From contig NZ_JACCBB010000001.1 of the NCBI RefSeq assembly GCF_013409345.1, forward strand, positions 4,712,001 through 4,776,000: DNA of 64,000 bases, written 5' to 3'. This DNA comes from Kineococcus aurantiacus (GTDB taxonomy: Bacteria; Actinomycetota; Actinomycetes; Actinomycetales; Kineococcaceae). Position 1 is the first letter of the stretch; each line of letters starts with the position of its first letter. A program made the translations under genes and the position numbers. The notes below the pieces were generated by a model. That model had not been told where the DNA came from and made no database searches. It worked only from the letters and a program-made list of their open reading frames with translations. Positions 32,096-63,780 of the stretch are shown here, piece by piece.

Positions 32096-32125
32096 ACGCG
32101 CCCGCAGGGCGCCGTGACCGTGAGG
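32096..32125 (+). repeat. Interspersed repeat, type A
   Basis: CGCCCGCAGGGCG hairpin followed by CCGTGACCGTGAGG, directly after the stop of the preceding gene. Leftmost clear copy of the family. Confidence 0.75.
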
Positions 32126-32265
32126 CTCTGCCCTCGAGCTGAAACGGGAGCGACGGCCACCGTGCACGAGTGAGAACGTGGTGGCGCAGGCAGAGTCCCG
32201 TCAGCGCTGACGTCGTCGACTCACCACTGGTGCCCCGAGCGTCTGCGTCGGGAGCTGGACGCGCC

Positions 32266-32290
32266 GCTCCGCGGGATGACCGTGAGGTCG
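32266..32290 (+). repeat. Interspersed repeat, type B
   Basis: CTCCGCGGGATGACCGTGAG copy; type B replaces the CGCC-hairpin side of type A with CGCGGG. Confidence 0.75.
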
Positions 32291-32296
32291 CTGGCT

Positions 32297-32440
32297 TCAG
32301 ACGTCGTGCCGTGAACACACCGGTCGGAAGGCCCACCTGGTGAGGAACCTCCAGTCCAGGGAGGGGTGGGTGACCTCACCGATGAGCAGGGCCAGGGTGA
32401 TGCCGTCGTCGGCTTCCCCGTGCTGCAGGGTGCCTCGGGC
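32297..32440 (-). pseudogene. Possible 3' fragment of a decayed gene
   Basis: The minus strand reads GTLQHGEADDGITLALLIGE and on through a TRWAFRP segment to a stop at 32297, a protein-like composition unlike the arginine-rich sequence upstream of it. No start or intact N-terminal part is found. From 32441 to 32979 further pieces (for example GYHGHLAAGCAVVQDFAEEH in another frame) look like scattered coding remains, but no complete gene is supported. Confidence 0.35.
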
Positions 32441-32979
32441 TCGTCCTCGCTCCGTTGGACGTCGAACGGCGGGCCCGCCCGCGTCGCGGGCGCCTGTCCG
32501 CGGCGGTCGCCCCGCTGCCGCTGGTGCGGGCGATGGTCCCGCACCACCTGCACCGGGTGCGTGCGCTCGCCCGTCGCGGAGCGCGGGTCCTGCGGCGCCG
32601 GCGGTGAACCGTTCCCGGCGCCCCGGTCCCGGCGAGCGTCTCGGCGGGCGGCTGCGGGTTCGAGCGCGACGGGTTCTCCGGGCCCAGCAGCACCAGCCCT
32701 CACCGGCGCAGGGGGACGGGGTGTTCCTCCGCGAAGTCCTGCACGACTGCGCAGCCCGCGGCGAGGTGGCCGTGGTACCCCGCTGACGGCGCTGCCGCAG
32801 CTGACCCGGCGGGTGTTCGTGGGCCTCCGCGGCCGCCTCGTCGACGCAGCCCGCACCGGGGTCGTGCTCGACGAGGGCACGCGTCCGTGGCCGTCCGCGG
32901 GCGACTGCTCCGCGCTGGGCGGGCGACCGACCGCGACGACCCCCGTGGTTCCTGCTCGCCGCTGCGCGCGGCGTCCTGG

Positions 32980-33927
32980 TCAGCGGTGCAGGAACAGCCG
33001 CACCGCGGTTCCGGCGCTCGTGCTGCGAACGGCGCTGTCGTCGGCGATGGCCCGGGCGAGCCACAGTCCGCGGCCGTTCTCGCCGTCCGGCTCGGGCACG
33101 GTGTAGCCGGCCACGCCGACGGTGAACCCGGGGCCGTCGTCACGCACCTCGAGCACGAGACGGCCCTCACCGTCCGTCCACGCGCTCAGCTCGGCCGAGC
33201 CGGCGGCTCGGAGCGCGTTGGCGACGAGCTCGTGGACGGCGAGCAGCGTGTCGTCCGCGCGGTCGTCGAGGCCGCCGTCCGTCAGGACCTGCCGGGCGAA
33301 CCGGCGCGCCGTCCGCGTGTCGGAGACGACCGCCCGGGAGGCGTCGGGCGGCGCCTGGAGCCACGCCGGTTCCGCCAGGCGCACGTAGGCGTCGGGGTCC
33401 ATGAACGACGCCGACGGGACGGGGGACGCGCCACCCCAGACCAGGGGGTGCGTCCGCTGCACCTCGGCCACGTGGGCCGGCGCGAGGTGGCGCAGGTCGT
33501 GCAGGCACAGCGCGTAGTGGCTCACGTCCTCGTAGGCGCGGTTGTACGCCGTCTCGATGCGGTGCCACTCCTGCGCGTCGGCGTGCTCCAGCCACACCGG
33601 TTCGCCGATGAGGCGGCACGCCTTGCCGCGTTGCGCCAGGTCGCGGAGCACGCGGTCGTACAGCTGCACCGTCCCGTGGCCGCCCTGCCAGACGTCCGCG
33701 GACTCGGCGCAGAGCGCCAGACGGTCGGCGTCAGCGCCGAGCACCGACACCAGGGCGGCGACGGTGGTGCGGCTGCCGACGAGGAGGACGTCCTCGTCGC
33801 GCTCGAAGCCTTCACGGATGAAGGGGAGGCACCGGGCCACGAGCTCGTCGTCGTCGGCGAAGAAGAAGGCCTCGTGCGCCAGGCCCGTCCCCGTCCAGCC
33901 GCCGGACGGCTGCAGCTCGACGGTCAC
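32980..33927 (-). CDS. MEDS-domain protein with HATPase (anti-sigma kinase-like) domain
   Basis: A 315-residue protein. Residues about 15-190 form a MEDS (DcmR-type) sensory domain: HEAFFFADDDELVARCLPFI, EDVLLVGSRTTVAAL, and the later QEWHRIETAYNRAYEDVSHY. Residues about 200-315 are a GHKL/HATPase_c domain of the RsbW/SpoIIAB type: N-box LLAVHELVANALRAAG, G1 box VRDDGPGF, and GRGLWLARAIAD. Such proteins bind ATP and phosphorylate or sequester anti-sigma partners. GTG 33927 overlaps the stop of the upstream MEDS-STAS gene (GTGA), so the two are co-translated and probably partners. Confidence 0.85.
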   Translation of the reverse strand: MTVELQPSGGWTGTGLAHEAFFFADDDELVARCLPFIREGFERDEDVLLVGSRTTVAALVSVLGADADRLALCAESADVWQGGHGTVQLYDRVLRDLAQRGKACRLIGEPVWLEHADAQEWHRIETAYNRAYEDVSHYALCLHDLRHLAPAHVAEVQRTHPLVWGGASPVPSASFMDPDAYVRLAEPAWLQAPPDASRAVVSDTRTARRFARQVLTDGGLDDRADDTLLAVHELVANALRAAGSAELSAWTDGEGRLVLEVRDDGPGFTVGVAGYTVPEPDGENGRGLWLARAIADDSAVRSTSAGTAVRLFLHR

Positions 33928-41840: not shown

Positions 41841-41915
41841 CTGGCCGGCGAGCCAGGTGTCGTGGGTGCTCGAGCACGCCTGCTCTGCGCTGCGTGACGC
41901 CAAGACCGCGACCGG

Positions 41916-41938
41916 CTCGCGCGATGACCGTGACGTCG
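41916..41938 (+). repeat. Interspersed repeat, type B
   Basis: Single copy reading CTCGCGCGATGACCGTGACG; begins the repeat-rich zone. Confidence 0.7.
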
Positions 41939-42653: not shown

Positions 42654-42772
42654 GGCGGCGACCGTCAGGCCGGCGCGGTCGCGCACTGATGCGCCCTCGG
42701 GCGACGGCGTCATGGCGCTGCGAGACCGTCCGCAACTCGACACGACTGTGACGTCGCGGGCGCCAGCGACAG

Positions 42773-42829
42773 CGCGCACCGCGGGATGACCGTGCGCTCC
42801 GCGCGCACCGCGGGATGACCGGAAGGTCA
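42773..42829 (+). repeat. Type B repeat doublet
   Basis: Two CACCGCGGGATGACCG units separated by TGCGCTCCGCGCG; nearly the same composite as at 51150-51200. A degenerate inverted type A piece (GGCGTCATGGCGCTG) lies at 42705-42720. Confidence 0.75.
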
Positions 42830-42862: not shown

Positions 42863-43231
42863 ATGGACAGCTCCGGGTGGGTCGCGGTGCGATGCATCTT
42901 CCGCAGCCGCCGCGAGGACGGGGAAGGCGAGGCCGTCTTCGAGGAGCGCCTGACGCTGTGGCAGGAGACCGACGTCGACCGCGCCATCGAAAGGGCTGAG
43001 ACGGAGGCGGAGGCCTACGCGGCCGAGACGACGTGGCCGCCGGACTGGGTGACGGAGTACCTGGGCACTGCCCAGGCGTACGTGCTCTCCGACGAGCCGG
43101 CGGACGGCGCGGAGGTCTTCAGCCTGATGCGCAACAGTCACCTGGCACCGACTGCCTACCTCGATCACTTCTTCACGACCGGTCAGGAACGCACGGGGCA
43201 CATCGACGAAGCGGGCGCCGAGGCTCCCTGA
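42863..43231 (+). CDS. DUF4288-like protein
   Basis: A 122-residue protein starting MDSSGWVAVRCIFRSRREDG at ATG 42863. The pattern W-x-AVRCIF, EERLTLWQETDVDRAIERAE, EYLGTAQAYVLSDEP and ending with a short basic/acidic helix matches the DUF4288 family, small proteins often found near immunity genes of contact-dependent toxins. Cytoplasmic, no cofactors visible. A longer frame from 42815 would begin inside the preceding repeat and is rejected. A repeat copy follows its stop. Confidence 0.65.
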   Translation: MDSSGWVAVRCIFRSRREDGEGEAVFEERLTLWQETDVDRAIERAETEAEAYAAETTWPPDWVTEYLGTAQAYVLSDEPADGAEVFSLMRNSHLAPTAYLDHFFTTGQERTGHIDEAGAEAP

Positions 43232-43240
43232 CGAGCCTCT

Positions 43241-43265
43241 CTCACCGCGGGATGACCGCCAGGTG
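43241..43265 (+). repeat. Interspersed repeat, type B
   Basis: CTCACCGCGGGATGACCGCC copy nine bases after the DUF4288-like gene. Confidence 0.7.
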
Positions 43266-43381
43266 GTGCTGGCCTTTTTCCGCAGCCGGTTGGATCACGA
43301 GGGCGTCTCCTCGTGATCTCAGGTGGCTGACGGGCTCGCATCTGCCTGCGGCTGTGCACCGCTGCTGGTTACGGTCAGGTG

Positions 43382-43783
43382 ATGACGACGAAGGCGCCGG
43401 CAGTGGGCATGGGCTTGATCGTTCTGGCCTTGCTGGTGGTCATCGGGTGGTCGATGTGGACCCCGCCTCCGCTGCGCTTCCTCACCCGTGCTGACCTGCC
43501 AACCTGCCCGCCGGTCAGTGCTAAGCAGTTGGCCGCCGCACCGCAGGCGGCAGGAGGTTGCCTCTTCGGTGAGCGGGCCCGGCGCGAGGGTGCAGAGCTG
43601 GTCGTGACGTCGATGACCGATGAGGGCGATGAGGTGCGCACTTACTACCGGGCGGTGCCGCGGACCGCGGGGTTGGAGGTGTGGAGCGACACGAGCGGTG
43701 ACCGCTACGGCGGTGGGTGGGAGCACCAGGTGTGCCCTGAGGCTGTGTCGCTGGCTGCTCTAGGTACCTGCCGGACGGCGTGA
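43382..43783 (+). CDS. Small membrane-anchored hypothetical protein
   Basis: A 133-residue protein with one N-terminal membrane helix (VGMGLIVLALLVVIGWSMW, about residues 7-25). An extracytoplasmic domain follows with four cysteines (PTCPP, GGCLFG, HQVCPE, GTCRT), probably two disulfides. Its middle, RYYRAVPRTAGLEVW-like, is beta-rich. ATG 43382 directly follows an in-frame GTG that could also start it. The family is unknown. Confidence 0.6.
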   Translation: MTTKAPAVGMGLIVLALLVVIGWSMWTPPPLRFLTRADLPTCPPVSAKQLAAAPQAAGGCLFGERARREGAELVVTSMTDEGDEVRTYYRAVPRTAGLEVWSDTSGDRYGGGWEHQVCPEAVSLAALGTCRTA

Positions 43784-43833: not shown

Positions 43834-43863
43834 CGCCCGGACGGCGCCATGACCGTGAAGTCG
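43834..43863 (+). repeat. Interspersed repeat, type A
   Basis: CGCCCGGACGGCG hairpin plus CCATGACCGTGAAGTCG. Confidence 0.75.
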
Positions 43864-43955: not shown

Positions 43956-44630
43956 GTGTCTGAGCAGCCGGGGCCCGGCGCGGTGCCGGATGACGTCAGT
44001 GCTGTCCTGCGGGCGTTGACGCCGACTGATGCCCTGACCTGGGCGTTGCGGCCAGCGTCGCGTAGCCCAGGGCACCTGTCCCACGCGTGGGCGGTGGTGA
44101 GCGAGGAGGAGTTGGCCGCCGTGGCGGGCTTCTGCCCACCGCGGGTGCCGGCGGCGGCGATCGAAGGCTTGTGCGAGGTGTTGGCCGTGCCCGGGCGCCA
44201 CGGCAAGCCTCACCTCCAGCGTGAGGACTCGGGCAGGTCCTTCACCTCGTCGTTCGCGGTCTTCTACCTCCCGGAGTCCTCAACGTGGCGCACCATGAGG
44301 AGGTCTTCGGTACTGAGCAGCAACACCATGGCCCTCTACGTCAGAGAAGCTGATGAGCAAGAGTGGCCGAGGGACATGGGGCGGCGGTGGCAGGAGTTCG
44401 ACGCTGACGGTTCGGTGATTCCCCTGCAGGCTGCGTCGGACTTCGTGATCGTGACGGTCGCCGGTACTGCGGTGGGTGTCCAGGTCGATACCAGCGGAGC
44501 CATGGCCTTGGGGTGGTCGCTGCGCCGGGAGGTGCGGGGAGCTGACCGTCGCTGGGATGTGGAGCTGCATCTACGGCGTGAGCCTGAGGAGGCGCTGCGG
44601 CTGGTCCACGAGGCGGGGCTGCTGACCTGA
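43956..44630 (+). CDS. Hypothetical protein, paralogue of the gene at 41979
   Basis: A 224-residue soluble protein starting at GTG 43956 (MSEQPGPGAVPDDVSAVLRA). No family recognised. It shares with the 41979 product identical length and a C-terminal pattern VGVQ...DVE...P..A.RL. The N-terminal half (PTDALTWALRPASRSPGHLS, then HAWAVVSEEELAAVAGFCPP) appears unrelated, so the two may share only one domain. Candidate member of an immunity-like array. Confidence 0.65.
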   Translation: MSEQPGPGAVPDDVSAVLRALTPTDALTWALRPASRSPGHLSHAWAVVSEEELAAVAGFCPPRVPAAAIEGLCEVLAVPGRHGKPHLQREDSGRSFTSSFAVFYLPESSTWRTMRRSSVLSSNTMALYVREADEQEWPRDMGRRWQEFDADGSVIPLQAASDFVIVTVAGTAVGVQVDTSGAMALGWSLRREVRGADRRWDVELHLRREPEEALRLVHEAGLLT

Positions 44631-44670: not shown

Positions 44671-44698
44671 ACGCCCAGATCACGCCATGACCGGACGC
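44671..44698 (+). repeat. Interspersed repeat, degenerate type A
   Basis: CACGCCATGACCGGACGC; a still weaker trace (CCGCGAGATGACGG) follows at 44733-44750. Confidence 0.6.
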
Positions 44699-44799
44699 AT
44701 GCGCAGCGCGCCTTGGCCGGATGCTGCAGCTGACCGCGAGATGACGGGGCTCGTCGGGTCATAGCTGATGAGCGGATGGTCGCCGGAAGCGCTGCGGGG

Positions 44800-45525
44800 T
44801 CAGGACCAGCCGACGCTGCGGTGGAAGGCCGGGTCGTCCAGGTAGTGCCGATAGCCGTCCTGACTGTGGATGACGCCGTGCTCGTCCTCCACAGCACGCC
44901 AGTCTTGCCATGCACCCGCATAGCGCAGGGAGATGACGCTTTGGACCGCTGCGGAGGAGGCGGTCGAGTCTTCCCAGAGGCCAGGATCGTCAGGCGTCGC
45001 CGCGGGACCTCCAGAGGTGGCGGTGAGAGCGTGCTTCTCGGCGAGGTCGGCGGTGGCGTGGAACATCGCGGCCAGCGAAGGAGCGATCAGGCGCCGACCG
45101 TCGACGCCGACGTCGATCAAGATCGCTGGTCGCTCGGCGGTCAGCTCCAAGGCGATGGAGTAGTGGCCTCCCTGTGTCAGCGGTAGCCATCCCCGGGGCC
45201 AGGGACCCATGAAGCCGTCGGAGCAGAAGTCCTGGTAGTTCCTAGTCATGTACTGCGCCGGGGTGAGCACGCCGGCGTTGAGGGTGGGCCACCACGCGAT
45301 GGACGATGCATCGGACTGTCCGTCGTGCCAGCGCAGGTAGGCGACCAGGTCGGGGGGCAGCGGCCAGGGGGCGGTGGCCTCGTGTAGCGCCTGCAGGTCT
45401 TGCTCAGTGGCTGGGGGGCGCAGGGTGGACTTCAGCACGGGTGCGCCGGTGGTGAGTGCGGCATCGAGCCGCTGCAGCGCTGAGGTGATGTCGTGCGTGT
45501 CCTCCACTTGGCCACGGTAGGACAC
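44800..45525 (-). CDS. SMI1/KNR4-family protein
   Basis: A 241-residue protein (GTG 45525) with the SMI1/KNR4 layout: RPPATEQDLQALHEATAPWP, LPPDLVAYLRWHDGQSD, WWPTLNAGVLTP, GWLPLTQGGHYSIALEL and DLAEKHALTA. In bacteria this superfamily supplies immunity proteins against polymorphic toxins, though many members stand alone. It is cytoplasmic. No toxin gene is adjacent, so it is an orphan. The minus-strand orientation interrupts the plus-strand run of neighbours. Confidence 0.75.
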   Translation of the reverse strand: MSYRGQVEDTHDITSALQRLDAALTTGAPVLKSTLRPPATEQDLQALHEATAPWPLPPDLVAYLRWHDGQSDASSIAWWPTLNAGVLTPAQYMTRNYQDFCSDGFMGPWPRGWLPLTQGGHYSIALELTAERPAILIDVGVDGRRLIAPSLAAMFHATADLAEKHALTATSGGPAATPDDPGLWEDSTASSAAVQSVISLRYAGAWQDWRAVEDEHGVIHSQDGYRHYLDDPAFHRSVGWS

Positions 45526-45623: not shown

Positions 45624-45657
45624 GCGCCCGGAAGGCGCATGACCGGTGGGTCTTCGC
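45624..45657 (+). repeat. Interspersed repeat, type A
   Basis: CGCCCGGAAGGCG followed by CATGACCGGTGGGTC. Confidence 0.65.
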
Positions 45658-45698
45658 GTCTCCCAGGCTTCGTCAGGTGCTGCTGGCAGGCTGTAAGG

Positions 45699-46217
45699 GT
45701 GGCGGATCGACTGCACGCACCAGGCCCTCCGCATCTGCAAGGCGCACCGTTGCAGGCGCTGCTAGGCGCCCTCGACGACCACCAGCACCTGGAGCGCCCG
45801 GCCGACTACGACCACGCCAGGACCCGGGCCCGCTTCGAGCAGCTGATCGCCGACCTCGAAGCGGCCTTCGGTTGCCGCTGCGAGGTGGATGGACAGGTGC
45901 AGGACGCCAGCCACCACGGGCGCATCACCGTCCCGGCCGTGGCCACGGCTTCGGGGGTGCCGCTGGTCGTGGTGCTCAGCAACTTCGCCGGCCTGGTCGT
46001 GTGCGCGGTGGACAACCCTGGTGCTCACAGTGATGAGGAGACCGACCTATTGGTCGATGCCGCTGACGCGGTCCGGATCCGTGCGGTCTTGTCGCGGCTG
46101 GACCTGACCCTGGTGCCGGAGGACCCGTTGTGGCGGGCCTACGACGGCGACGGGCCGCTGGGGCCTCACCTGGGGGCAGGTCGCACCTGGTTTGAGCGCT
46201 ACTTCGACTACCTCTAG
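45699..46217 (+). CDS. Hypothetical protein
   Basis: A 172-residue acidic protein. I start it at GTG 45699 (VADRLHAPGPPHLQ) with AAGGG directly upstream; the longer frame runs back through a repeat copy and is rejected. It contains a helical LEQ/ARFEQLIADLEAAFGCRC segment and a beta strand pattern (GVPLVVVLSNFAGLVVCAVD), ending RTWFERYFDYL. No family recognised; the aromatic acidic end is common in small immunity-type proteins. Confidence 0.6.
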   Translation: MADRLHAPGPPHLQGAPLQALLGALDDHQHLERPADYDHARTRARFEQLIADLEAAFGCRCEVDGQVQDASHHGRITVPAVATASGVPLVVVLSNFAGLVVCAVDNPGAHSDEETDLLVDAADAVRIRAVLSRLDLTLVPEDPLWRAYDGDGPLGPHLGAGRTWFERYFDYL

Positions 46218-46281: not shown

Positions 46282-46359
46282 CGCCCGCAAGGCGCCATGA
46301 CCGGACGCGCCCGCAGGGCGCCATGACCGGACGCGCCCGCAGGGCGCCATGAGCGGGCG
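46282..46359 (+). repeat. Tandem triplet of type A repeats (26-bp units)
   Basis: Three head-to-tail 26-base units starting at 46282, 46308 and 46334, each CGCCCGCARGGCG plus CCATGACCGGACG. The first two differ at one base, the third has AGCGGGCG at its end. A degenerate fourth unit precedes them. Confidence 0.85.
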
Positions 46360-46383
46360 GTCTCAGTTGGTGGTCGGTGCGCG

Positions 46384-46995
46384 TCAGCCCAGGCCGCGAT
46401 AGACGCCGTCGGTTCCGGCGGCGTCCGCGAAGGACTCCCAGTCCATGTTCGCCAGCGAGAGGTTGTTCTCGATCGACCACATGGACGCGGGCACGGCGCG
46501 CAATTGGTGCGCCACCCCATCGCTGATGTAGATCACCAGAGCGGCTAGCTCCGGTGAGGACAGGGCGGCCGCGTCGGCGACGATGATCAACGCGTAGTCC
46601 GGCGCGGCAGCGGTGATGTCCTCGGCCGTGGCGTCCTGCCACCGGCGGTCCTCGACCGGGATGAAGCTGGGGAGGAAGCCCTCCTCGCTGGGTGTCTCCA
46701 GGGCTTCCAGCAGGGCGTTCCAGCGCTGAGGCTGGGAGAAGTCCGTGCGCACCAGCACGGTTCCTCGCTCGGTCGGTAGTGCGGCCAACTGTGAGCCTCC
46801 TTGATCGTCATCCGTGTCGTTCATCGGCGTCGGGTCGGGTGCTGCCTGGCCGGTCGGCTGGCTCGCAGACGGGCCGGAGGCGGCTGACGCCTCGACGAGG
46901 GTGACTCCTTGGTGGGAGGAGGTCGTGCCGGCGCAGCCGGGCAGCACGAGCGCCACTGCGATGAGCGCGGCCCTCGTCCGACGCGCCGACGGCAC
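46384..46995 (-). CDS. DUF6924-like lipoprotein
   Basis: A 203-residue protein (GTG 46995). A lipoprotein leader (AALIAVALVLPGC, Cys about 21) and a Ser/Asp-rich linker precede a domain of about 125 residues. In it, TVLVRTDFSQPQRWNALLEA, VEDRRWQDATAEDITA, MWSIENNLSLANMDWESFAD and GVYRGLG fit the DUF6924 pattern, which normally is a small cytoplasmic protein. Fusion to an export signal is notable. Function unknown; related domains are seen near immunity genes. Confidence 0.7.
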   Translation of the reverse strand: MPSARRTRAALIAVALVLPGCAGTTSSHQGVTLVEASAASGPSASQPTGQAAPDPTPMNDTDDDQGGSQLAALPTERGTVLVRTDFSQPQRWNALLEALETPSEEGFLPSFIPVEDRRWQDATAEDITAAAPDYALIIVADAAALSSPELAALVIYISDGVAHQLRAVPASMWSIENNLSLANMDWESFADAAGTDGVYRGLG

Positions 46996-47154
46996 CTGTG
47001 ACCTACCTCCCTGAGACGCTCACGCCGCGGCCTGGATGGTGCGACCGGACTTGCCTACCGCGTCCGGCTACGCGGACCCGTGTCCAGCGCGGAAGGTCAC
47101 CCATTCGGTCCTGCACCAGCCGTCCGCTCGTCGGCAAGACCGCGCGGTCGACGA

Positions 47155-47185
47155 GCACCCGGACGGCGCCATGACCGCGAAGTCG
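47155..47185 (+). repeat. Interspersed repeat, type A
   Basis: CACCCGGACGGCG plus CCATGACCGCGAAGTCG. Confidence 0.75.
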
Positions 47186-47243: not shown

Positions 47244-47744
47244 TCAGCTGTACGGAGACAAGCTCTCGGCCTCGATCTTGCCCTCGGTCAACCACAGCAA
47301 GACAGGCCGCGGCTCTTCTCCGTACTCGATGTAGCCCAGCAAGATCGGACGCAACGGGTGCCCCTGCAGGTAGGGCCCCAACCAGCGCAAAGCAGGAACG
47401 ATGCCTTCAGGCCAGGTCTTGATGGCCCACCGGCAGGTCAGGGTCCACCTGTGCGCTTGCGTCCACACCAGCTGTGCGCTGGGCGAGCACGAGACGCTCA
47501 TGGAGTGGCTGAACCAGCCGGCCCAGTCATGCAGCCACGGAGTGGGGTCCTCAGTGGGGTCAGAGAGCTCGTCACTGGGTTCCCAGTCCTCGTCAGGGTC
47601 GATTACGTGCGGAGCTGGCAGCGGCGGGGCCGGCTCCTGCCAGGACTCCCGCGGGACCGCCAGGGCTGAGAACGCGGCCAGGACGTGGTCGGGGGTGTCC
47701 GGACGGAACGAGAAACCGAGCACGACCTCGGAGAAGGAGCCCAT
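47244..47744 (-). CDS. Hypothetical protein
   Basis: A 166-residue acidic, tryptophan-rich protein starting MGSFSEVVLGFSFRPDTPDH at ATG 47744. No signal or membrane segment. The middle (DEDWEPSDELSDPTEDPTPW) is highly acidic. The C-terminal part (RPILLGYIEYGEEPRPVLLW) resembles beta-hairpin ends. It is not assigned to a family. Coding character is supported by normal amino-acid composition and low arginine. Confidence 0.65.
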   Translation of the reverse strand: MGSFSEVVLGFSFRPDTPDHVLAAFSALAVPRESWQEPAPPLPAPHVIDPDEDWEPSDELSDPTEDPTPWLHDWAGWFSHSMSVSCSPSAQLVWTQAHRWTLTCRWAIKTWPEGIVPALRWLGPYLQGHPLRPILLGYIEYGEEPRPVLLWLTEGKIEAESLSPYS

Positions 47745-47877
47745 CGGCTGAGGCTAGAACGGCACGTGTGTCGTGCACTGGGGGCAGGAGCTCGGGTTCA
47801 TCCGTTCAGCCGCACAGTGATGAGTCGTCCGCTCCTAGCGCTCTTCGGCATGTGCGTGTGGTCGACGACGTTCTGGC

Positions 47878-48564: not shown

Positions 48565-48593
48565 TCGCCCGCAGGGCGCCATGACCGCGAGGT
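48565..48593 (+). repeat. Interspersed repeat, type A
   Basis: CGCCCGCAGGGCG hairpin plus CCATGACCGCGAGG, just after a stop codon. Confidence 0.8.
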
Positions 48594-48678
48594 GGGTACT
48601 CGCTCCTTGGGGTCTCGGCCGCCGCTGCTGTTGGAGGCTCGTGACCTTGCACTGTCACGATGGGTGACCGTGGCGAGG

Positions 48679-49098
48679 ATGAAGGGCCCGTGGTCGTGGC
48701 TGCTGGCGGTGATCTGGCTGGGCTTTGCAGCCATGGGCGCGATGATCTTGAGTGAGGACCACACTCCTGGCGGGCTGATCATCGGCGCTGCGGTCTTGGC
48801 GACGGGGTTGTTCTGCGGGGCGCGGGCTGCGCTAAGCCACGTTCGGCTGACCGATGAGGGGCTGGTGTACGTCGGGTACGCAAGGACGCGACGTGTGCCG
48901 TGGACTCAGGTGAGTGAGGTGGTGGTCGCCGAGCTCGGATCGGCACTGCCGATCACGACGGTGGGGGTGTCGGTGCGGCTGTACGACGCCACCGAGGTTG
49001 AGTTGCCTGCACTGGCTGGCTTCGCGGTGGCTGGGCATAACCGCCGTGTGCAGCGTCTGGTAGATGCTGCGGAGCGACGCCGAGCTGGTAAGGGCTGA
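48679..49098 (+). CDS. Small two-helix membrane protein with PH-like domain
   Basis: A 139-residue protein. Two N-terminal membrane helices (SWLLAVIWLGFAAMGAMIL and GGLIIGAAVLATGLFCGAR) precede a domain of about 75 residues, VRLTDEGLVYVGYARTRRVP, then WTQVSEVVVAELGS and VSVRLYDATEVELPAL. This is the strand pattern of small bacterial PH-like (bPH) domains. Start uncertain: ATG 48679 used, GTG 48664 or 48670 possible. Role unknown. Confidence 0.65.
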   Translation: MKGPWSWLLAVIWLGFAAMGAMILSEDHTPGGLIIGAAVLATGLFCGARAALSHVRLTDEGLVYVGYARTRRVPWTQVSEVVVAELGSALPITTVGVSVRLYDATEVELPALAGFAVAGHNRRVQRLVDAAERRRAGKG

Positions 49099-49121: not shown

Positions 49122-49206
49122 AGGCGCGGATCGCGCCATGACCGTGTGCAGCGCGGCTCGCGCCAGGACCGTGACCTCGCCTCCAAGGTGCCATGACGGT
49201 GACATG
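49122..49206 (+). repeat. Type A composite with spacer
   Basis: CGCGCCATGACCGTG, spacer GCAGCGCGGCTCG, second core CGCCAGGACCGTGACC, then a third degenerate CCATGACGGTGAC. Confidence 0.75.
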
Positions 49207-49494: not shown

Positions 49495-49519
49495 CTGAAG
49501 CGCTAATGATCTTGCGCTC

Positions 49520-49602
49520 TTCGGCATGACCGCTGGGTCGTCGAGCATGCGGACGGCGCCGTGACCGTGCCCAGCGCGGCTCGCGCCATGACCGCGACCT
49601 CG
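49520..49602 (+). repeat. Type A composite with spacer
   Basis: CGGCATGACCGCTGGGTCG, then GGACGGCGCCGTGACCGTG, spacer CCCAGCGCGGCTCG, and CGCCATGACCGCGACC. Third composite of this layout. Confidence 0.75.
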
Positions 49603-49656
49603 TCCTCGGGGGATTTGTCCCACCACGGACCGCACCGGTGCGGCAGCCTGGCCGGC

Positions 49657-50130
49657 ATGAGCAGCTTCTCGGTCATGGCGTCAGTACAGATGCGCGGCGC
49701 CGGCCCTGACCTGCCTCTGCCACGAGTGGGGCTCATCGCCGCTCCAGACCGACCACTGCAGCACGACCAGGACGAGCGGGACGATCTGCAGGACTGGCCT
49801 TTCCCGGTCAGCGTGGACTTCGCCAGCCCCACCGGCGTGGGGCGCTACGCCGTAGTCCAGACAGTGTCGCAGCGCGTGACCTCGGCCGGGGCGGCGTTGG
49901 TGCTCGACAGCGCCTCAGGAGGTGAGCCGTGGCAGCCGCGACCGAAAGCCTTGGGCTGGGACCCGGAGGACTGGGGGATGCGCTGGCCCTTCGACGGGTG
50001 GTGGGTGTGGGCGGACTTCACCAGCGACTTCGCGGGGCCGGCAATCTTCACCGTTACCGCACCGGTGCGGTGGGGACCTGATCACAGGCGGGCAGAGGTG
50101 GTGCTGACGCTGACGGTGACAGGGCACTGA
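49657..50130 (+). CDS. Hypothetical protein
   Basis: A 157-residue protein from ATG 49657 (MSSFSVMASVQMRGAGPDLP). The middle and end are beta-rich (FPVSVDFASPTGVGRYAVV, FTVTAPVRWGPDH, AEVVLTLTVTG). The segment WDPEDWGMRWPFDGWWVWAD is strikingly tryptophan-rich. No signal peptide. Not assigned to a family. The longer frame from 49561 reads through repeat DNA (MTVPSAARAMT) and is not used. Confidence 0.6.
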   Translation: MSSFSVMASVQMRGAGPDLPLPRVGLIAAPDRPLQHDQDERDDLQDWPFPVSVDFASPTGVGRYAVVQTVSQRVTSAGAALVLDSASGGEPWQPRPKALGWDPEDWGMRWPFDGWWVWADFTSDFAGPAIFTVTAPVRWGPDHRRAEVVLTLTVTGH

Positions 50131-50174
50131 GCCTGGCGCTGAGGTGCTCGTCTGCCCGGCCACGGAGTGGCCGA

Positions 50175-50201
50175 CCGCCCGGACGGCGCCATGACCGTGC
50201 G
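50175..50201 (+). repeat. Interspersed repeat, type A
   Basis: CGCCCGGACGGCGCCATGAC followed by CGTGCG. Confidence 0.75.
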
Positions 50202-50218
50202 CCGCGTGGCGGTGGGGC

Positions 50219-50653
50219 TCAGATGAGCCAGACGTCCTGCTCAGGCTGGGCGTTGCAGTCCGTCAAGGCCTGAGCAAGCTCGTCGGAGCTGGCGCTGAGC
50301 GATGAGGCCGGCACCGCGCCCCCGCCGAGTTCGGTCTGCTCGCCGAGGGTGAGGGTGTGCCCGCCGGGCATGGTGAGGGTGGACGTGGTGGTGTCCCAGG
50401 TGGTGCCCGCCGGCCAGATCACCAGCAGGTCCTCCAGCCCGATGCAGGGACCGACGCGAGCCAAGCGGCCGGTGATGACCGCGGTCATGCTCCCGTTGCC
50501 GTCGTCGGAGGCGACGATGATCTCGCCTTCTCGGGCGGCGGTGAGCTCGAGGCTGGCGTCGTCACGGGCACAGCTGCTCAAGCCGGCAATCAAGCCGGCG
50601 GTGATGATCGTGATCACGATCGCGCCAGTGCGCCGCTTCGGCGGTCTCTTCAC
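50219..50653 (-). CDS. Hypothetical lipoprotein
   Basis: A 144-residue exported lipoprotein (GTG 50653): basic start KRPPKRR, hydrophobic IVITIITAGLIAG and lipobox LSSC (Cys 28). The mature part is beta-rich with LLVIWPAGTTWDTTTSTLTM and GGHTLTLGEQTELGGG, a small OB/beta-barrel-like pattern recurring in actinobacterial lipoproteins, and two further cysteines that could pair. No partner gene. Confidence 0.65.
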   Translation of the reverse strand: MKRPPKRRTGAIVITIITAGLIAGLSSCARDDASLELTAAREGEIIVASDDGNGSMTAVITGRLARVGPCIGLEDLLVIWPAGTTWDTTTSTLTMPGGHTLTLGEQTELGGGAVPASSLSASSDELAQALTDCNAQPEQDVWLI

Positions 50654-50713
50654 GGCCCTGGGACGTTCGGTGGCTCGTGCTGGTTGCGTACGACGGACGC
50701 CGCGACGGCACCA

Positions 50714-50767
50714 TCTCTGCGGGATGACCGTGCGGTCTCGCGCACCGCGGGATGACCGTGATGTCGC
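50714..50767 (+). repeat. Type B repeat doublet
   Basis: CTCTGCGGGATGACCGTGCG, then CGCACCGCGGGATGACCGTG. Confidence 0.75.
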
Positions 50768-50844
50768 CCATGCCCGGGGCCGACGTGAGACGGTGCCAGG
50801 GTGATGGTGAGCTGCTCCAGCCCTCTCGCATCGTGGGCTGTCTC

Positions 50845-51084
50845 ATGTGGATGAGGGAGCGACCCGGAGGTCCACTTCGACCCCGAGTGCGCTGGATCAT
50901 GACCTTCGTCTACGCCGTAGTGGGCGTGGGTGGCGGCCTCGTCTTCATCGTTCGAGGTGCCCGGGATGGAGATGACTTCTTCTACTGGCTCGCCGCTGCC
51001 AACGCAGTCTTCTGGCTTGGCCTGTTGGTCGCGATTCTCGTCGTCGACAACCGTCGACGGCGTGCGGTGGGTGGGACGTCATAG
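50845..51084 (+). CDS. Small two-helix membrane protein
   Basis: A 79-residue protein from ATG 50845 (MWMRERPGGPLRPRVRWIMT): basic N-terminus, two membrane helices (FVYAVVGVGGGLVFIV and YWLAAANAVFWLGLLVAILV) and a basic tail (DNRRRRAVGGTS). Both ends cytoplasmic by the positive-inside rule. No homologue recognised. The frame upstream of this start overlaps a repeat doublet. Confidence 0.5.
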   Translation: MWMRERPGGPLRPRVRWIMTFVYAVVGVGGGLVFIVRGARDGDDFFYWLAAANAVFWLGLLVAILVVDNRRRRAVGGTS

Positions 51085-51126: not shown

Positions 51127-51200
51127 CTTCGGTATGACCCCGACCGCGCGCTGCGCGGGATGACCGTGCGCCGCTCGCACCGCGGGATGACCGGAAGGTC
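51127..51200 (+). repeat. Type B repeat cluster
   Basis: CTTCGGTATGACC, then GCTGCGCGGGATGACCGTGC, spacer GCCGCTCG, and CACCGCGGGATGACCGGAAG; close copy of the doublet at 42773. Confidence 0.75.
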
Positions 51201-51210
51201 TTGCCTCTCT

Positions 51211-51804
51211 TCAGCGCCGTCCGCGGTACCGCGAGCTGGACCGGCGAGAAGCCGACGTAGCCGGGGCGGTCTTAGGTGCCATCAGTGAGGTGAAAGGCGT
51301 TCCGTGCTCAGCGCACGCCCGCTGCACAGCTTGGATCGCCTCAGCCTGTTCGTCTTCGTCGAGCAGCAGCAGGTCTGTGACGTAGGAGACTCCGTCGCTG
51401 CCCTTCCAGGAGGCACTGGGCTGGTGGAACAAGGTGAGGTAGGTGTGCGCCGTCGCAGGAGCGCGGCCACCCAGGCTCCACTGCGGGTGCTTGGCCCAGC
51501 GGCCCATCTCCACTTTCTGCAGCTGCGTCCAGGCGATCTGCCCGCGCAGCCGGCGCCGGTTGCGCCACAGCAGGTGGGTGCCGTCGTCGTGGGCGCTGTT
51601 GTGGGCCAGGACGTGGCGCCACCACAGCCAGCGCAGAGTGCTTACCGCCAGGGGTGCTGCGGCGATCTGTACGAAGAAGAGGTCCCGGGTCAGCAGGGTC
51701 ACCACCGTCAGGGGGATGGTGAGCACCATGGCGGGAGTGAAGGCACGCCAGGCGTGGCGGGCGGAGCTGGTGAGCAGCATCCGCTCGGTGGCGGTGGAAG
51801 GCAC
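51211..51804 (-). CDS. Two-helix membrane protein
   Basis: A 197-residue protein (GTG 51804): two membrane helices (FTPAMVLTIPLTVVTLL and LFFVQIAAAPLAVSTL, residues about 22-58). A soluble region follows with WRNRRRLRGQIAWTQLQKVE, reminiscent of PH-like domains in which a Trp/Thr-Gln-Leu stretch opens a strand, and then VTDLLLLDEDEQAEAIQAVQ. The tail is Ser/Arg-rich. Function unknown; an overall layout similar to the 48679 product. Confidence 0.6.
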   Translation of the reverse strand: MPSTATERMLLTSSARHAWRAFTPAMVLTIPLTVVTLLTRDLFFVQIAAAPLAVSTLRWLWWRHVLAHNSAHDDGTHLLWRNRRRLRGQIAWTQLQKVEMGRWAKHPQWSLGGRAPATAHTYLTLFHQPSASWKGSDGVSYVTDLLLLDEDEQAEAIQAVQRACAEHGTPFTSLMAPKTAPATSASRRSSSRYRGRR

Positions 51805-51861
51805 CCTTCACGCTACGGCAGATGGGGCCGTGTCCTGGAGTGATCCAGGCTGCTGCACCCA

Positions 51862-51883
51862 GAGAGCGGGATGACCGTGCGGT
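51862..51883 (+). repeat. Interspersed repeat, type B
   Basis: AGAGCGGGATGACCGTGCGG single copy. Confidence 0.7.
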
Positions 51884-51943
51884 AGCTATGCAGACCTCTC
51901 AACCACCGCAGCAGTCCTCGCGGCAATCGATCACGATGGTCAC

Positions 51944-52411
51944 GTGAGACCTGAAACCGCCGCTGTGCTCGGCCCTGTCCTGCGCGACTGGGACAGCTAC
52001 AGGATCAGCTACCGGGTGCAGGAGGACTGGGCTCCATCCCCCTACGACCCCGACTCGGCCGCGGCGATCGTGATGGTCTGGACCTCGGACGGATCGGGTA
52101 CCGGCGTCTTCGTCGGCGCACCCGGCGAGCCGGTGACCGCGCTGGCAGTGCTCGCCGCCGCGAACGCCCTGCACGACGCCGTCATCGACGACCGGCTGTT
52201 GGGCATGACGACCTGGCCGCCATGCCCGCTGCACCCGGCCAGCCACCCCCTCACCCCACGTCTGCACGATCCCGACCAGACGCACGAGCAAGACCTGGAC
52301 GAAGCCCTCTACCCGGACGTCGACGTGGTCTGGACTTGCCTGCGCACCGGTGAGGTGGTCTGCCGAGTAGGGGAGCTGGAGAGCGCGTCGTTCGAGTCCA
52401 TGTCCGGGTGA
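51944..52411 (+). CDS. Hypothetical protein
   Basis: A 155-residue acidic soluble protein from GTG 51944 (VRPETAAVLGPVLRDWDSYR). Strands SYRVQEDWAPSPYDPDSAAA and AIVMVWTSDGSGTGVFVGA precede a helix (ALAVLAAANALHDAVIDDRL) and a CPLHPASHPL loop with conserved-looking Cys and His; a further Cys is in VDVVWTCLRTGEVVCRVG. The Cys/His residues might bind metal. No family assignment. It ends at the presumed left edge of the IS110 element. Confidence 0.6.
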   Translation: MRPETAAVLGPVLRDWDSYRISYRVQEDWAPSPYDPDSAAAIVMVWTSDGSGTGVFVGAPGEPVTALAVLAAANALHDAVIDDRLLGMTTWPPCPLHPASHPLTPRLHDPDQTHEQDLDEALYPDVDVVWTCLRTGEVVCRVGELESASFESMSG

Positions 52412-54040
52412 GACGAACGCTCGGCCATCGGCTACTTGTTGACTTCCCCCACGGCAACGGCCCGGCCAGGCTGTGCCGAGGTGCCCGGCGCGACGCTCTC
52501 ATATCGGCTGCCCACCAGCTGCACCGGTGTGGCTCTCTCATGGCGTGCGAAGCGTCGGGCACCGCCCGGCGGGGTGAGGCTCAAGAGGGGTCTGGTCATG
52601 CTCGAAGTAGCGCTGCCCACCACCGTCAGCACCACCGAGGACGACTGACTGGCTGTCCTCGAGCGCGACGGGGAGGTCAGCATGAAGCAGGCGAAGCCAG
52701 CAGCGCAGCCAACAGGGACCGCTCCGGCGGTGGTGATCGGGATGGACCCGCACAAACGTTCCGCCACCATCGAGGTCCTGAACCGCAGCGAGGACGTCCT
52801 GGGCGAAGGGCGCTTTGCCAGCGACACCGCCGGCTACCGAGCGATGCTGGCCGCCGGACGGACGTTTCCCTCGCGCCTGTGGGCGGTCGAAGGCGCGAAC
52901 GGCATCGGTAAGCACTTGGCGCAGCGCCTCATCGCCGACGGTGAGGACGTCGTCGACGTCCCGGCGAAGCTGTCGGCGCGGGCGCGGGTGTTCTCCACCG
53001 GTCAGGGCCGCAAGACCGATGCGACCGACGCGCACTCCATCGCCGTCGTCGCCTTGCGGACCACCACCTTGCGGGCGGTGACCGTCGATGGGGAGCACGT
53101 CGCCTTGCGGCTACTGGCTGACCGGCGGGACGAGTTGGGGGTCCGACGGACGGAGACGGTGAACCGGATCCACAAGCTGCTGTTGGAGTTGATGCCGGGC
53201 GGGGCGAAGAAGTTCCTGTCTGCAGCGCAGGCGAAAGCACTGGTAGCGCCCGTCCGCCCGCGTGACGTCGCGGGCAAGACCCGTCGGCGGATCGTGGTTG
53301 CGCTCATCGATGAGCTGGCCGCCACGGACAAGCTGATCAAGGCCGCGAACAAGGAACTGACCGAACTGGTCACCGCCTCGGGGTCACGGTTGATGGACCT
53401 GCAGGGCATCGGTCCTTCGACCGCGGCGCGGCTGCTGGGCGATGTCGGGGACATTGCCCGCTTCCCGTCCAAGGGGCACTTCGCGTCCTGGAACGGGACT
53501 GCTCCGATCGATGCCTCCAGCGGCGACAGTGATCACCAGCGCCTGTCGCGGGCCGGCAACCGGCGGCTGAACCGGGTGCTGCACACGATGGCCATCGTTC
53601 AGCTGCGACACGACACCGAGGGCCGGCGATACTTCGACGGCAAGAAGGCGGCGGGCAAGTCGTCGATGGAGGCGCTGCGGGCGTTGAAGCGGCGTCTGTC
53701 CGATGTGGTCTATCGCCAGATGGTCGCCGACCAGGACGTTCGTCGCTTCGGGCTGGAACCACCGGACGGACCGTCGCCGGAGCCTGCGGCGACGGCTCTG
53801 GCGCAGGAGGCGGAGCTCGTTGTCGACCTTGTCGAGGCCCTGGACGAGAAGGCATCACCGGAGGCCCTGGTGACGGGTCCGGGAGGACAGGTGGGGGCGG
53901 CTACTGGCTCCAGCGCGGTCGACTGCAACCCCGGTGTCGACGCTTCGGAGAAGTCACTTCCCGGACCCGCACGACCATCCTCGACCCGTGCTCGCCGACC
54001 CCGCAAGACCCGCCCTTGACATAGAGGGGAGCCATGACCG
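52412..54040 (+). mobile_element. IS110-family insertion sequence
   Basis: An apparently intact IS110-type element: a 270-base 5' non-coding part, a complete DEDD transposase gene, and a 3' end just after the stop at a TTGACATAGAGGGGAG stretch. IS110 elements lack inverted repeats, so both ends are estimates. Published IS110 biology places the bridge (guide) RNA in the long non-coding end, here most likely 52412-52681. The repeat cores CCATGACCGTGACG and GTGACCGTGAAG follow the right end directly. Confidence 0.7.
52682..54019 (+). CDS. IS110-family DEDD transposase
   Basis: A 445-residue recombinase. The N-terminal RuvC-like domain has D22 (GMDPHKRSA), E70 (WAVEGANG), D113 and D116 (KTDATDAHS). 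The C-terminal transposase_20 domain has LMDLQGIGPSTAARLL and SGDSDHQRLSRAGNRRLNRV, with the conserved serine. The last 80 residues (Pro/Ala/Arg-rich) extend past the usual end, probably because the stop lies in the element's 3' end. ATG 52682 has GGGAGG seven bases ahead. All catalytic residues are present, so it may be active. Confidence 0.92.
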   Translation: MKQAKPAAQPTGTAPAVVIGMDPHKRSATIEVLNRSEDVLGEGRFASDTAGYRAMLAAGRTFPSRLWAVEGANGIGKHLAQRLIADGEDVVDVPAKLSARARVFSTGQGRKTDATDAHSIAVVALRTTTLRAVTVDGEHVALRLLADRRDELGVRRTETVNRIHKLLLELMPGGAKKFLSAAQAKALVAPVRPRDVAGKTRRRIVVALIDELAATDKLIKAANKELTELVTASGSRLMDLQGIGPSTAARLLGDVGDIARFPSKGHFASWNGTAPIDASSGDSDHQRLSRAGNRRLNRVLHTMAIVQLRHDTEGRRYFDGKKAAGKSSMEALRALKRRLSDVVYRQMVADQDVRRFGLEPPDGPSPEPAATALAQEAELVVDLVEALDEKASPEALVTGPGGQVGAATGSSAVDCNPGVDASEKSLPGPARPSSTRARRPRKTRP

Positions 54041-54063
54041 TGACGTCCGTGACCGTGAAGTCG
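54031..54063 (+). repeat. Type A repeat cores next to the IS110 end
   Basis: CCATGACCGTGACGTC and GTGACCGTGAAGTCG in tandem. The interval 54041-54399 contains no gene. Confidence 0.65.
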
Positions 54064-54182
54064 CACCATGATCATCGGATCGAGCTGTAGCTGGCCTGTC
54101 CCGAAGACACTCCCGGTTTTCGGGACACTGGGGCCAGGGTGGGCTTCGATCACGGCCATGGTCTGCACCGGCGCATGTGCAG

Positions 54183-54238
54183 CTCGGACGGCGTGATGAC
54201 CGCGACGCCGCCCGCAGGGCGCCGTGACCGCGGGGCGG
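54183..54238 (+). repeat. Interspersed repeats, mixed type
   Basis: CGGACGGCGTGATGACCGCG, then CGCCCGCAGGGCG with CCGTGACCGCGGGG. Confidence 0.7.
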
Positions 54239-56940: not shown

Positions 56941-56982
56941 GACTCACCACCCGCAGATCGACACGACTGCGAGGTCGTCGAG

Positions 56983-57036
56983 CGCGCGGACGGCGCCATG
57001 ACCGTGCGCAGCGCGGCTCGCGCCATGACCGTGCGC
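56983..57036 (+). repeat. Type A composite with spacer
   Basis: GCGGACGGCGCCATGACCG, then TGCGCAGCGCGGCTCG, then CGCCATGACCGTGCGC; a clean example of the composite. Confidence 0.8.
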
Positions 57037-57126
57037 AACGACTCGCGGCTAGGGGACTGAGGAACCCCTTTGGTCACGCTCGCGTCGAAGCTCAGTCAAG
57101 CGCTGCAGGCTGACGATGGGGTGGGC

Positions 57127-57630: not shown

Positions 57631-57721
57631 TGACGTCGCGCTCAATGCGCCATGACCGCGAGGTCGCCGGCAGGGCGCCATGACCGTGCGCAGCGCGGCC
57701 CGCGCCATGACCGTGACGTCG
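57631..57721 (+). repeat. Type A repeat cluster
   Basis: GTGACGTCGCGCTCAATGCG with CCATGACCGCGAGGTCG, then GGCAGGGCGCCATGACCGTG, spacer CGCAGCGCGGCCCG, and CGCCATGACCGTGACGTCG. The densest cluster. Confidence 0.8.
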
Positions 57722-62533: not shown

Positions 62534-62731
62534 TTCCTGCAACCTACTCACGGTCGCAATACCTGCCTGCGAATTTGCAGGCTGGTTGGGCCTGGGAGCT
62601 CACCGCCAACGATCATCTGTCATCACCTCCCCACGAGAGCACCCGCAACCTGCAACGCGGGATGAGTGCGCAGGTGGCGAAGTGGCCGTACGCGTCATGA
62701 ACAGCGCATCAGGACAGCGAGGTATCAGCGC

Positions 62732-62771
62732 TCGGCAGCTCGGCAGCTCGGCAGCTCGGCAGCTCGGCAGT
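62732..62771 (+). repeat. Five perfect 8-bp tandem repeats
   Basis: CTCGGCAG five times head to tail at 62732-62771, between the penicillin-binding protein gene and the converging membrane protein gene; the surrounding 260 bases contain no gene. Confidence 0.9.
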
Positions 62772-62799
62772 CCATCAGTCCTGTAGCCCGGTAATTCAG

Positions 62800-63276
62800 C
62801 TACTGCCGCCCAGACGGTTCGTCCGGTGCTGTCTCCCTTTCACCGCCAAGAGCTTGGTCGGCCTGCGCCTTATCGCGTTCATCCAACCGCCGGCCCCAGG
62901 CGACCAGGAGTGCAAAGCCGGCTGAGAGCACCGGCACGGTAGCGAAGACGACCAGGTAGATGGCGCCGGTCGTGGCGAAGTAGAGGGGCTGGACGGCGAT
63001 GACGGTCACCGGCATCGCGATGCGCACCCGGGCGCGGGTGGTGAAAAGCATCGCCCACGGCGCGATGAGGTGCACTGCCCAGGGCACCCCGTACACCCCG
63101 ATCCAGCCCAGCTCGGCCAGAGGGGAGTCGTCGACCACCGAGACGACGGGAAGGGCCAGGACAAGCAGGATCACGACGACCTGCCAGGGCCGCAGGGGCC
63201 ACCAGCCGATCGTGCTGAGGACCAGGATCGGCAGTAGGCCCACTGCGTAGACCATCACCAGGGCGGCGTAGTGCAA
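62800..63276 (-). CDS. Hypothetical four- to five-helix membrane protein
   Basis: A 158-residue protein with hydrophobic helices ALVMVYAVGLLPILVLST, PWQVVVILLVLALPVVS, GVYGVPWAVHLIAPWAMLF, AMPVTVIAVQPLYFATTGAIY and LVVFATVPVLSAGFALLVAW, then a charged tail. The start is uncertain: TTG 63276 has AGGAG eleven bases ahead, ATG 63255 lacks a site. It converges on the penicillin-binding protein gene. Function unknown. Confidence 0.65.
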   Translation of the reverse strand: MHYAALVMVYAVGLLPILVLSTIGWWPLRPWQVVVILLVLALPVVSVVDDSPLAELGWIGVYGVPWAVHLIAPWAMLFTTRARVRIAMPVTVIAVQPLYFATTGAIYLVVFATVPVLSAGFALLVAWGRRLDERDKAQADQALGGERETAPDEPSGRQ

Positions 63277-63283
63277 TGCTCAC

Positions 63284-63734
63284 TCATCTCCTACTCGATG
63301 GGCATGGCCGCGGCGCTGGGCCGCGCCGGCGAACAGCAAACTGTGCGGTGGGCAGCCGACGGTCCGCTGGTGCGTTCGGAAGGCGCGGCGGCGGGGCTGT
63401 GCACCGGCCGCACGCTCGCATCGCAGGGAGGGCGGCCACCTTGACAGCGTCCCACCCTCCCAGCGGAGGGCAGGGGTCAGGTGTCCAAGTGGCCGCCGCT
63501 CGAGGCGATCTGAACGCTATTGCGGGCGGAGGCCGTGCCTGTGCTTTCACTGCGAGGTGGTCGAGGTCGCGTCAGGCCAGGGTATGTCGGCCAGTGCTGG
63601 GTTGGTGAACAGGGTGCGCGTGTCGTCGCCGGTGATGGAAGGAGCCGAAGGACCGCTCAGGTCCCAGCTCGTCCCGGCTGCTGGCCTCGCATTGGGTGTT
63701 GGCAACCACGCACGGCCCATCGGGGCAGAGTCGG
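63284..63734. other. Gene-free interval with a possible gene relic
   Basis: No supported gene. The minus strand from about 63690 to a stop at 63547 reads SWDLSGPSAPSITGDDTRTL and FTNPALADIPWPDATSTTSQ, a protein-like end without a credible start. Confidence 0.35.
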
Positions 63735-63780
63735 GTGCCATGACCGTGACGTCGCCCGCACGGCGCCATGACCGCGAAGT
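63735..63780 (+). repeat. Type A repeat doublet
   Basis: GTGCCATGACCGTGACGTCG, then CGCCCGCACGGCG with CCATGACCGCGAAG; rightmost copies in the window. Confidence 0.8.

Follow-up and report, generated by a model that had tools for sequence, protein, structure and literature searches.

The stretch of DNA studied here (the window) comprises 64,000 nucleotides of the Kineococcus aurantiacus genome (C1:4712001-4776000; genome size 5.03 Mb) and carries, mainly to the right of 31.6 kb, a family of short intergenic repeats. These repeats are probably the sites at which a Xer-type recombinase exchanges the cassettes of an integron-like system. This reading is drawn, by comparison of sequences, from the repeats and their orientation, the borders of the cassettes together with a hybrid site, the association with a recombinase, and the conservation of an attI-like site in Micromonosporaceae. 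In the mechanism that we propose, a cassette would be a short unit, most often one gene, between sites with the core GCG-SS-ATGACCG. A Xer-like tyrosine recombinase encoded antiparallel to the sites would cut and exchange strands within a 12-bp core; this would release cassettes, move them and join them head to tail in a single direction, so that the arrays grow. Outside the Kineococcaceae, new cassettes would enter at the attI-like site preceding the recombinase gene. The part of the array recombinase as catalyst of the exchange, and the existence of circular intermediates, are what we infer from these observations.

Sites were scored with an iterated weight matrix trained on the site copies themselves. 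At a score of at least 16 the window contained 42 sites, of which 40 lie right of 31.6 kb (39 on the plus strand and one on the minus strand). At a score of at least 18 there were 38 right of this point (37 plus, one minus), against a single match in 400 kb sampled from the rest of the chromosome (20 samples of 20 kb). The repeat family reported in the initial annotation is therefore real, and its preference for the plus strand holds in 37 of these 38 sites. Left of 31.6 kb, where no copy had been seen, there were two matrix matches, which scored 16.0 and 19.1. By simple pattern search, CATGACCG was matched 25 times in the window versus 3.32 times in shuffled sequences (standard deviation 1.95, maximum 9) and GATGACCG 20 times versus 2.98 (standard deviation 1.68, maximum 7). 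The core GCG-SS-ATGACCG is often followed by (T/C)GA(V)GTCG, and the two forms of the repeat that had been distinguished were recovered as CC (52 of 102 distinct sites) and GG (31) before ATGACCG, the other 19 sites having other bases. The position between genes was also confirmed in the 421 sites of 13 arrays from three genomes (K. aurantiacus, G000, and two others of the genus, G001 and G008) used for all array statistics: only 32 of them lie in genes, although 69.7% of the array DNA was called coding by our own simple gene caller, which did not call some of the open reading frames (ORFs) between sites. An earlier description of the repeats or of such a system was not found in the open PubMed Central papers searched, bioRxiv and most subscription papers being outside that search, and to this extent the family can still be called undescribed. 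The words "integron", "repeat" and "cassette" are absent from the text of the paper on Kineococcus radiotolerans SRS30216 (PMC2587704).

Three more islands, genus-wide arrays and the cassette behaviour had been overlooked in the initial annotation. In the whole genome, CGCCATGACCG was matched 74 times and CGGGATGACCG 45 times (reversed controls, 8 and 2); 54 of the 74 (21 of them in one tandem array) and 29 of the 45 lie in four islands, leaving 20 and 16 outside. The islands are A (about 2.226-2.246 Mb), B (3.371-3.377 Mb), C (4.465-4.492 Mb) and D (4.744-4.786 Mb), the last containing the repeat stretch of the window. At C1:4776770-4777324 (L079:770-1324), a 27-bp unit corresponding to one whole site is repeated in 20.6 perfect tandem copies with no gene between them; similar tandem sites of about 34 bp were seen in Nocardioides psychrotolerans (L213) and Actinotalea (L188). 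With a model of the 33-bp core, and at most 150 candidates scored per genome, all 11 genomes examined in the genus had matches (8 to 131 per genome at E<=0.001, with 85 in G008), and 27 genomes of other genera had 0 to 2 each.

The polarity of the arrays is nearly strict. In K. aurantiacus, island A has 16 minus and one plus sites, B nine plus, C 27 plus, and D 68 plus and one minus. The arrays of G001 have 66 plus and one minus, 72 minus and no plus, 15 plus, 10 plus and 10 plus, besides one stretch with four minus and then 10 plus; those of G008 have 64, 37 and 10 plus sites, with no minus site in the first two. Among the called genes between sites, 159 lie on the same strand as the sites and 201 on the opposite one; therefore, orientation is a property of the array and not of the gene. 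No claim is made on orientation relative to replication, since GC-skew sampling was too noisy and the arrays of G001 stand in both orientations.

The median distance between site clusters was 787 bp. When segments longer than 6 kb were left out, 148 of the 271 inter-site segments contained one called gene, 43 two, 43 none and 37 three to five. Near-identical segments occur in different islands: A and B share 798 bp at 99.0% identity, B and D 570 bp at 98.1%, and C and D 616 bp at 88.5%. In G008, cassettes of 99% identity were likewise found in different arrays. Between two adjoining shared units of island B there is a hybrid site, whose left part corresponds to D and whose right part corresponds to A; the switch falls between positions -6 and -2, counted from the A of ATGACCG. 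The 13 arrays yielded 103 pairs of similar segments (at least 75% identity, at least 250 bp), or 95 after removal of the self matches of the G0D tandem array. In 13 of these pairs both ends, in 32 one end and in 50 neither end lay within 30 bp of a site in both copies. This corresponds to 58 of 190 ends, whereas a random point lies this near one site in 5.8% of cases. The borders themselves were analysed in those pairs (at least 85% identity) in which both copies have a site within 16 bp of the shared end; these pairs overlap, several have a cassette in common, and not all are independent. At left ends (n=11), 9-11 pairs agree between -5 and +20, and agreement left of -8 is close to chance; at right ends (n=22), 18-22 pairs agree between -6 and +6, and only 3-12 from +15 onwards. 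From both profiles, the exchange zone is therefore delimited to the 12 bp GCGSSATGACCG, and the breaks of shared cassettes that end at sites fall inside this core.

The gene content is of cassette type, with small and mostly unassigned genes. A Pfam family over cut-off was found in 13 of the 40 island proteins scanned, and these families include SMI1/KNR4, DUF6924, DUF6461, SdpI, GrpB, polyketide-cyclase-like, methyltransferase, transposase and regulator families. PADLOC gave on 10 cassette proteins a single weak match, PDC-M40A, to the SMI1/KNR4 protein. Island C carries in addition larger genes that do not resemble cassettes.

Eleven candidates near sites were picked from the tyrosine recombinases of the genus, and nine of them form one Xer-like family with six intact copies, one cut by a contig end and two broken. 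Six of the intact or cut copies have 89-95% identity to the seventh, and they retain the R, K, HxxR, H and Y residues which, by their roles, are expected in tyrosine recombinases. In the genus as a whole, G001, G002, G003, G007 and G010 have intact or contig-cut copies. All nine family copies whose orientation was examined are antiparallel to the neighbouring array, the G003 copy having a single opposite site nearby; the copies at G001:C1:96555-97468, G002:C14, G002:C27, G007:C26 and G009:C1 were outside this count. With NCBIfam models, three copies scored 116-122 bits for XerC, 113-120 for XerD and 121-130 for PRK00283, all below the cut-offs; for the L168 copy, 118 bits for XerC and 116 for XerD compare with cut-offs of 335 and 330, so that it does not qualify as a housekeeping XerC or XerD. 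The same three copies reached 53.2-54.2 bits with the integron integrase model TIGR02249, for which the cut-off is 265, and canonical IntI was rejected. Among solved structures the best match was XerD (E 2.6e-19), IntI4 having an E of 2e-4. The alignment count from the GKGxK lysine to the HxxR histidine is 61 residues versus 69 in the XerD chain, and therefore there is no insertion relative to XerD at this place. This lack of an insertion, together with the sequence-defined core, would favour a double-stranded, Xer-like reaction. Predicted structures of the recombinase were not of usable quality (mean predicted local distance difference test scores of 39.5 and 49.6). In three Kineococcus loci (L148, L167 and L169), conserved upstream DNA and a following reading frame stand beside the 5' end of the recombinase gene, and this frame is possibly a partner gene or a first cassette. 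A different element of 2.5 kb, with two side-by-side tyrosine recombinases and one end at or near a site, was seen at G001:C1:77588-80141, with copies in the same genome at 165441-167898, 169448-172001 and from 470001 to 471990 (stretch edge); it resembles elements of the RIT or Tn554 type and may use the sites.

The recombinase was also found beyond the genus. A scan of one genome per species (84,980 species) gave 41 loci, some partial or broken, which include Actinotalea, Nocardioides, Motilibacter, Kribbella, Actinomadura, Actinoallomurus and several Micromonosporaceae, as well as the Kineococcus records TRM81007, K. vitellinus and K. siccus. Translations were obtained for 25 of the 41, and four with internal stops were excluded from the tree and the alignment. 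When compared with phage, plasmid and other recombinases, a set without XerC/D and IntI, the array recombinases formed one clade (100/100, 26 rows) covering six families, the sub-clades of which follow host families. Beside this clade branches the integrase of Arthrobacter phage Isolde (MH910037.1 gene 36, L229:2411-3328), with 46% identity over 87% of the array recombinase, and another phage record has a place of 60-80% identity.

In these other genera the sites beside the recombinase gene have a GCGGCA core and run antiparallel to it. Around 33 of these loci (all non-Kineococcus, L224 left out), several words chosen after viewing the same loci were unevenly distributed with respect to the recombinase gene: GCGGCAGAT was found 56 times antiparallel and 8 times parallel (five of the 56 belong to one tandem array), CGGCATGA 69 versus 21, CGGCAGA 168 versus 71 and CGGCACGA 53 versus 28. 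Eight permuted control words gave 55-89 versus 50-82, the most uneven being 80 versus 55. An extended core at 22 loci occurred 111 times antiparallel (10 in called genes) and 19 times parallel (8 in genes). An attI-like site was present in 12 of the 14 Micromonosporaceae loci (11 genomes), 59-101 bp upstream from where the protein match begins. Agreement between columns was 0.81-0.84 in the 50-bp left flank, 1.0 in the core, 0.67 from +6 to +15 and 0.42 beyond, the last value being one that we take, by judgement rather than computation, as the level of chance. The DNA after the site varies between loci, as expected of different first cassettes. Extra copies of the left flank were detected away from the gene at two loci (one in L203 and two in L197).

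Several results weigh against the integron-like reading. In the recombinase loci of other genera, CGGCAAGA (26 antiparallel versus 24 parallel) and the Kineococcus core (9 versus 7) showed no strand bias, and GCGGCAGATSM had no clear excess over its reversed control (985 versus 807) in 16 whole genomes outside Kineococcus. Two of the 14 Micromonosporaceae loci (L200 and L210) have no attI-like site at the gene; the contrast between flank and following DNA is weaker in the Actinomadura group (0.67 versus 0.50 in six partly redundant rows, one without flank), and four more loci of this group have an altered core. The Kineococcus recombinases sit inside arrays rather than at an end, and visual inspection of 330 bp upstream of the gene, for eight of them, showed no attI-like site. 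K. aurantiacus itself keeps only a remnant of 72 positions, in island B; the islands of this genome therefore now resemble site arrays lacking an integrase. The copy of G009 is divergent and broken, and G004, G005, G006 and G008 (four of the 11 genus genomes) gave only general Xer-level matches and no family member, although the arrays of G008 persist and have apparently moved recently. Finally, there are the 50 pairs of similar segments without an end at a site, some of which are mobile elements or partial homology.

The best surviving alternative is that of passive REP-like (repetitive extragenic palindromic) intergenic repeats between which genes are shuffled by ordinary homologous recombination. 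As in the systems of REP and RAYT (REP-associated tyrosine transposase), the array sites are short, intergenic, slightly structured and present in many copies, and they have been tandemly amplified; RecA could yield similar segments in several arrays, and some genomes have arrays although the recombinase was not found in them. We nevertheless consider it unlikely, as shared segments ending at sites break inside 12 bp, a length short for RecA, and neither the near-strict one-way order of long arrays nor the cassette borders, nor the antiparallel recombinase with its attI-like site in other families, is proper to such repeats. The Y1 transposase is also missing: the initial annotation had seen no RAYT in the window, and Y1_Tnp gave no match at E<=0.001 in the whole genome (controls were positive in 5 of 14 genomes), by which a REP/RAYT system was rejected. 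Considerably less likely still is that the repeats mark where numerous small elements (satellites or phage-like units), each with an integrase of its own now or once, integrated and accreted in tandem, and thus are their attachment sites. The relatedness of Arthrobacter phage integrases, the top phage matches, and the position of the two-recombinase element against sites in G001 agree with it, whereas the units are small, as seen from the gene counts of the segments, and a recombinase was found in few of them.

Selection on a hairpin, which had been deduced from the base pairing of stem variants, is at most weakly supported by the sequences. Stem cells were paired in 65.5% of cases versus 63.3 (standard deviation 0.7) after shuffling, a value reached by 2 of 500 shuffles, and 23 of the 24 double changes fall in a single pair. 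The first hairpin alone showed a slight excess (0.565 versus 0.541, reached by 19 of 1000 shuffles), and a second possible hairpin showed none (0.703 versus 0.706). The z-scores of DNA folding were -0.38 for the top and -0.25 for the bottom strand in 120 sites, versus -0.04 in 117 controls (p 0.007 and 0.11), and certain copies (47121-47184, for example) form long imperfect palindromes. A role of the repeats at the ends of genes, as transcription terminators or RNA elements, is hardly credible, since in spite of this weak pairing and of the few bases separating some sites from a stop codon, genes stand on both strands relative to the sites (the ground on which, without a terminator scan, intrinsic terminators were rejected), tandem and composite sites occur with no genes between, and the aligned sites have no run of T. 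Altogether, the orientation set per array, its independence of gene strand, the islands and the breaks in the 12-bp core do not support the REP-like elements, terminators or binding sites that had been suggested.

In the window, the sites described below lie on the plus strand and, except the one at 45624, were located with the weight matrix. At the left edge of the array is a degenerate site, GCGCCGTGACCG (32099..32127, matrix 26.0). It is followed by a GG-type site (32261..32289), which is the left end of a stretch common to island B (91% over 178 bp), a site at 41909..41937, and a composite site at 42727..42828 with a box at 42742 and GG-type units at 42786 and 42815. The cassette gene at 42863..43231 (plus) has a weak DUF4288 match below the Pfam cut-off. 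Between a GG-type site (43237..43265) and the CC-type site with the top score of the window (43834..43862) lies an ORF not from the gene caller and without Pfam family (43379..43783, plus). The next cassette gene (43956..44630, plus) has no Pfam family either, and segment 43834-44684 has an 83% relative in a G001 array. After the CC-type site at 44672..44700, an SMI1/KNR4 (SUKH-1) gene identified with Pfam is antiparallel to the sites (44800..45525, minus), and a degenerate site, GGCGCATGACCG, below the matrix threshold (45624..45652), is followed by a plus-strand gene with no Pfam family over cut-off (45750..46217; longer reading 45573-46217).

Three tandem sites of period 26 (46282..46362) precede a DUF6924 gene (Pfam; 46384..46995, minus), and a composite site with two boxes 35 bp apart and a long imperfect palindrome (47121..47184) precedes a gene without Pfam family (47244..47744, minus). 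Two CC-type sites, at 47870..47898 and 48566..48594, flank another such gene (47968..48561, plus), the second starting within 5 bp of the preceding stop codon. The ORF at 48592..49098 (plus), not from the gene caller, has a bacterial PH domain match below cut-off. Two tandem sites of period 27 (49123..49178) and a composite site (49511..49601; boxes 49526, 49561 and 49588) are followed by the plus-strand cassette common to island C mentioned above (49583..50197), with the site core at both ends, and by a CC-type site (50176..50204). Pairs of GG-type sites stand at 50709..50765 (period 28) and 51145..51200 (period 27), and a single one at 51856..51884; around them, genes at 50219..50653 (minus), 51211..51804 (minus) and 51944..52411 (plus) and an ORF not from the gene caller (50752..51084, plus) have no Pfam family. 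An IS110-family transposase (Pfam; 52682..54019, plus) lies within the array and adjoins the weak site 54034; IS110 elements may use the site as a target. The group at 54019..54237 contains this site (16.2), a second weak one at 54224 (17.2) and one of 26.4 at 54196. Further on there are a composite site (56948..57038; boxes 56963, 56998 and 57025), three sites with periods 28 and 27 (57637..57720) and two of period 28 (63725..63781), and the array runs on past the window. A nine-base tandem repeat (CGGCGGCCT) was noticed at about 55551-55650, within a minus-strand reading frame, and a SAM-IV riboswitch (22376-22485, plus, 91.6 bits) was the only match of the window in an Rfam search at gathering thresholds.

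The system resembles integrons and superintegrons in its long one-way arrays, its small and mostly unassigned genes, a recombination site at each border, a recombinase antiparallel to the array, the attI-like site upstream of it in Micromonosporaceae, and recombinase sub-clades that follow host families. A one-way cassette array with exchange at the site is what polarity and core breaks point to, with the reservation already made on pairs lacking a site end. It differs from integrons in a recombinase closer to XerC/D than to IntI, in Kineococcus sites that keep a 12-bp sequence core and fold weakly, and in cassette genes on both strands, which argue against a single common promoter Pc. In attC sites, the R'' and R' boxes are RYYYAAC and GTTRRRY. 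Within 40 bp, GTTRRRY was found at 9 of the 421 sites versus 69 of 2157 control points and RYYYAAC at 5 versus 49, and thus neither is enriched. The working is integron-like, yet IntI and the attC boxes, two of the defining features of integrons, are missing. The islands of K. aurantiacus and the arrays of G008, with sites and cassettes and no intact array recombinase found, recall clusters of attC sites lacking integron-integrases (CALIN), although by the box test their sites are not attC. With Xer/dif and the pdif modules of plasmids, the arrays share a Xer-type tyrosine recombinase and short sites bounding mobile gene modules; unlike them, they have dozens to more than 100 head-to-tail sites per genome and a recombinase far below the XerC cut-off.

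According to the IntegronFinder 2.0 report, Actinobacteria lack complete integrons (PMC9024848). On balance, it seems more likely than not that Actinomycetota possess a second, independently evolved platform for cassette capture, with a Xer-type recombinase free of an IntI-like insertion, its own attI, a sequence-defined site, arrays of up to about 70 sites and a presence in several families; such arrays have probably been overlooked by integron finders. If this were confirmed, the phylum of the antibiotic producers would have a cassette system of its own, whose swappable units hold a large number of small genes still uncharacterised, and the core and the recombinase would serve as markers for finding and testing such arrays. 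This second platform may recombine double-stranded sites, an activity proposed as ancestral for IntI, and would then offer a natural comparison for the origin of integrons from Xer-like recombinases, as treated in PMC7790495.

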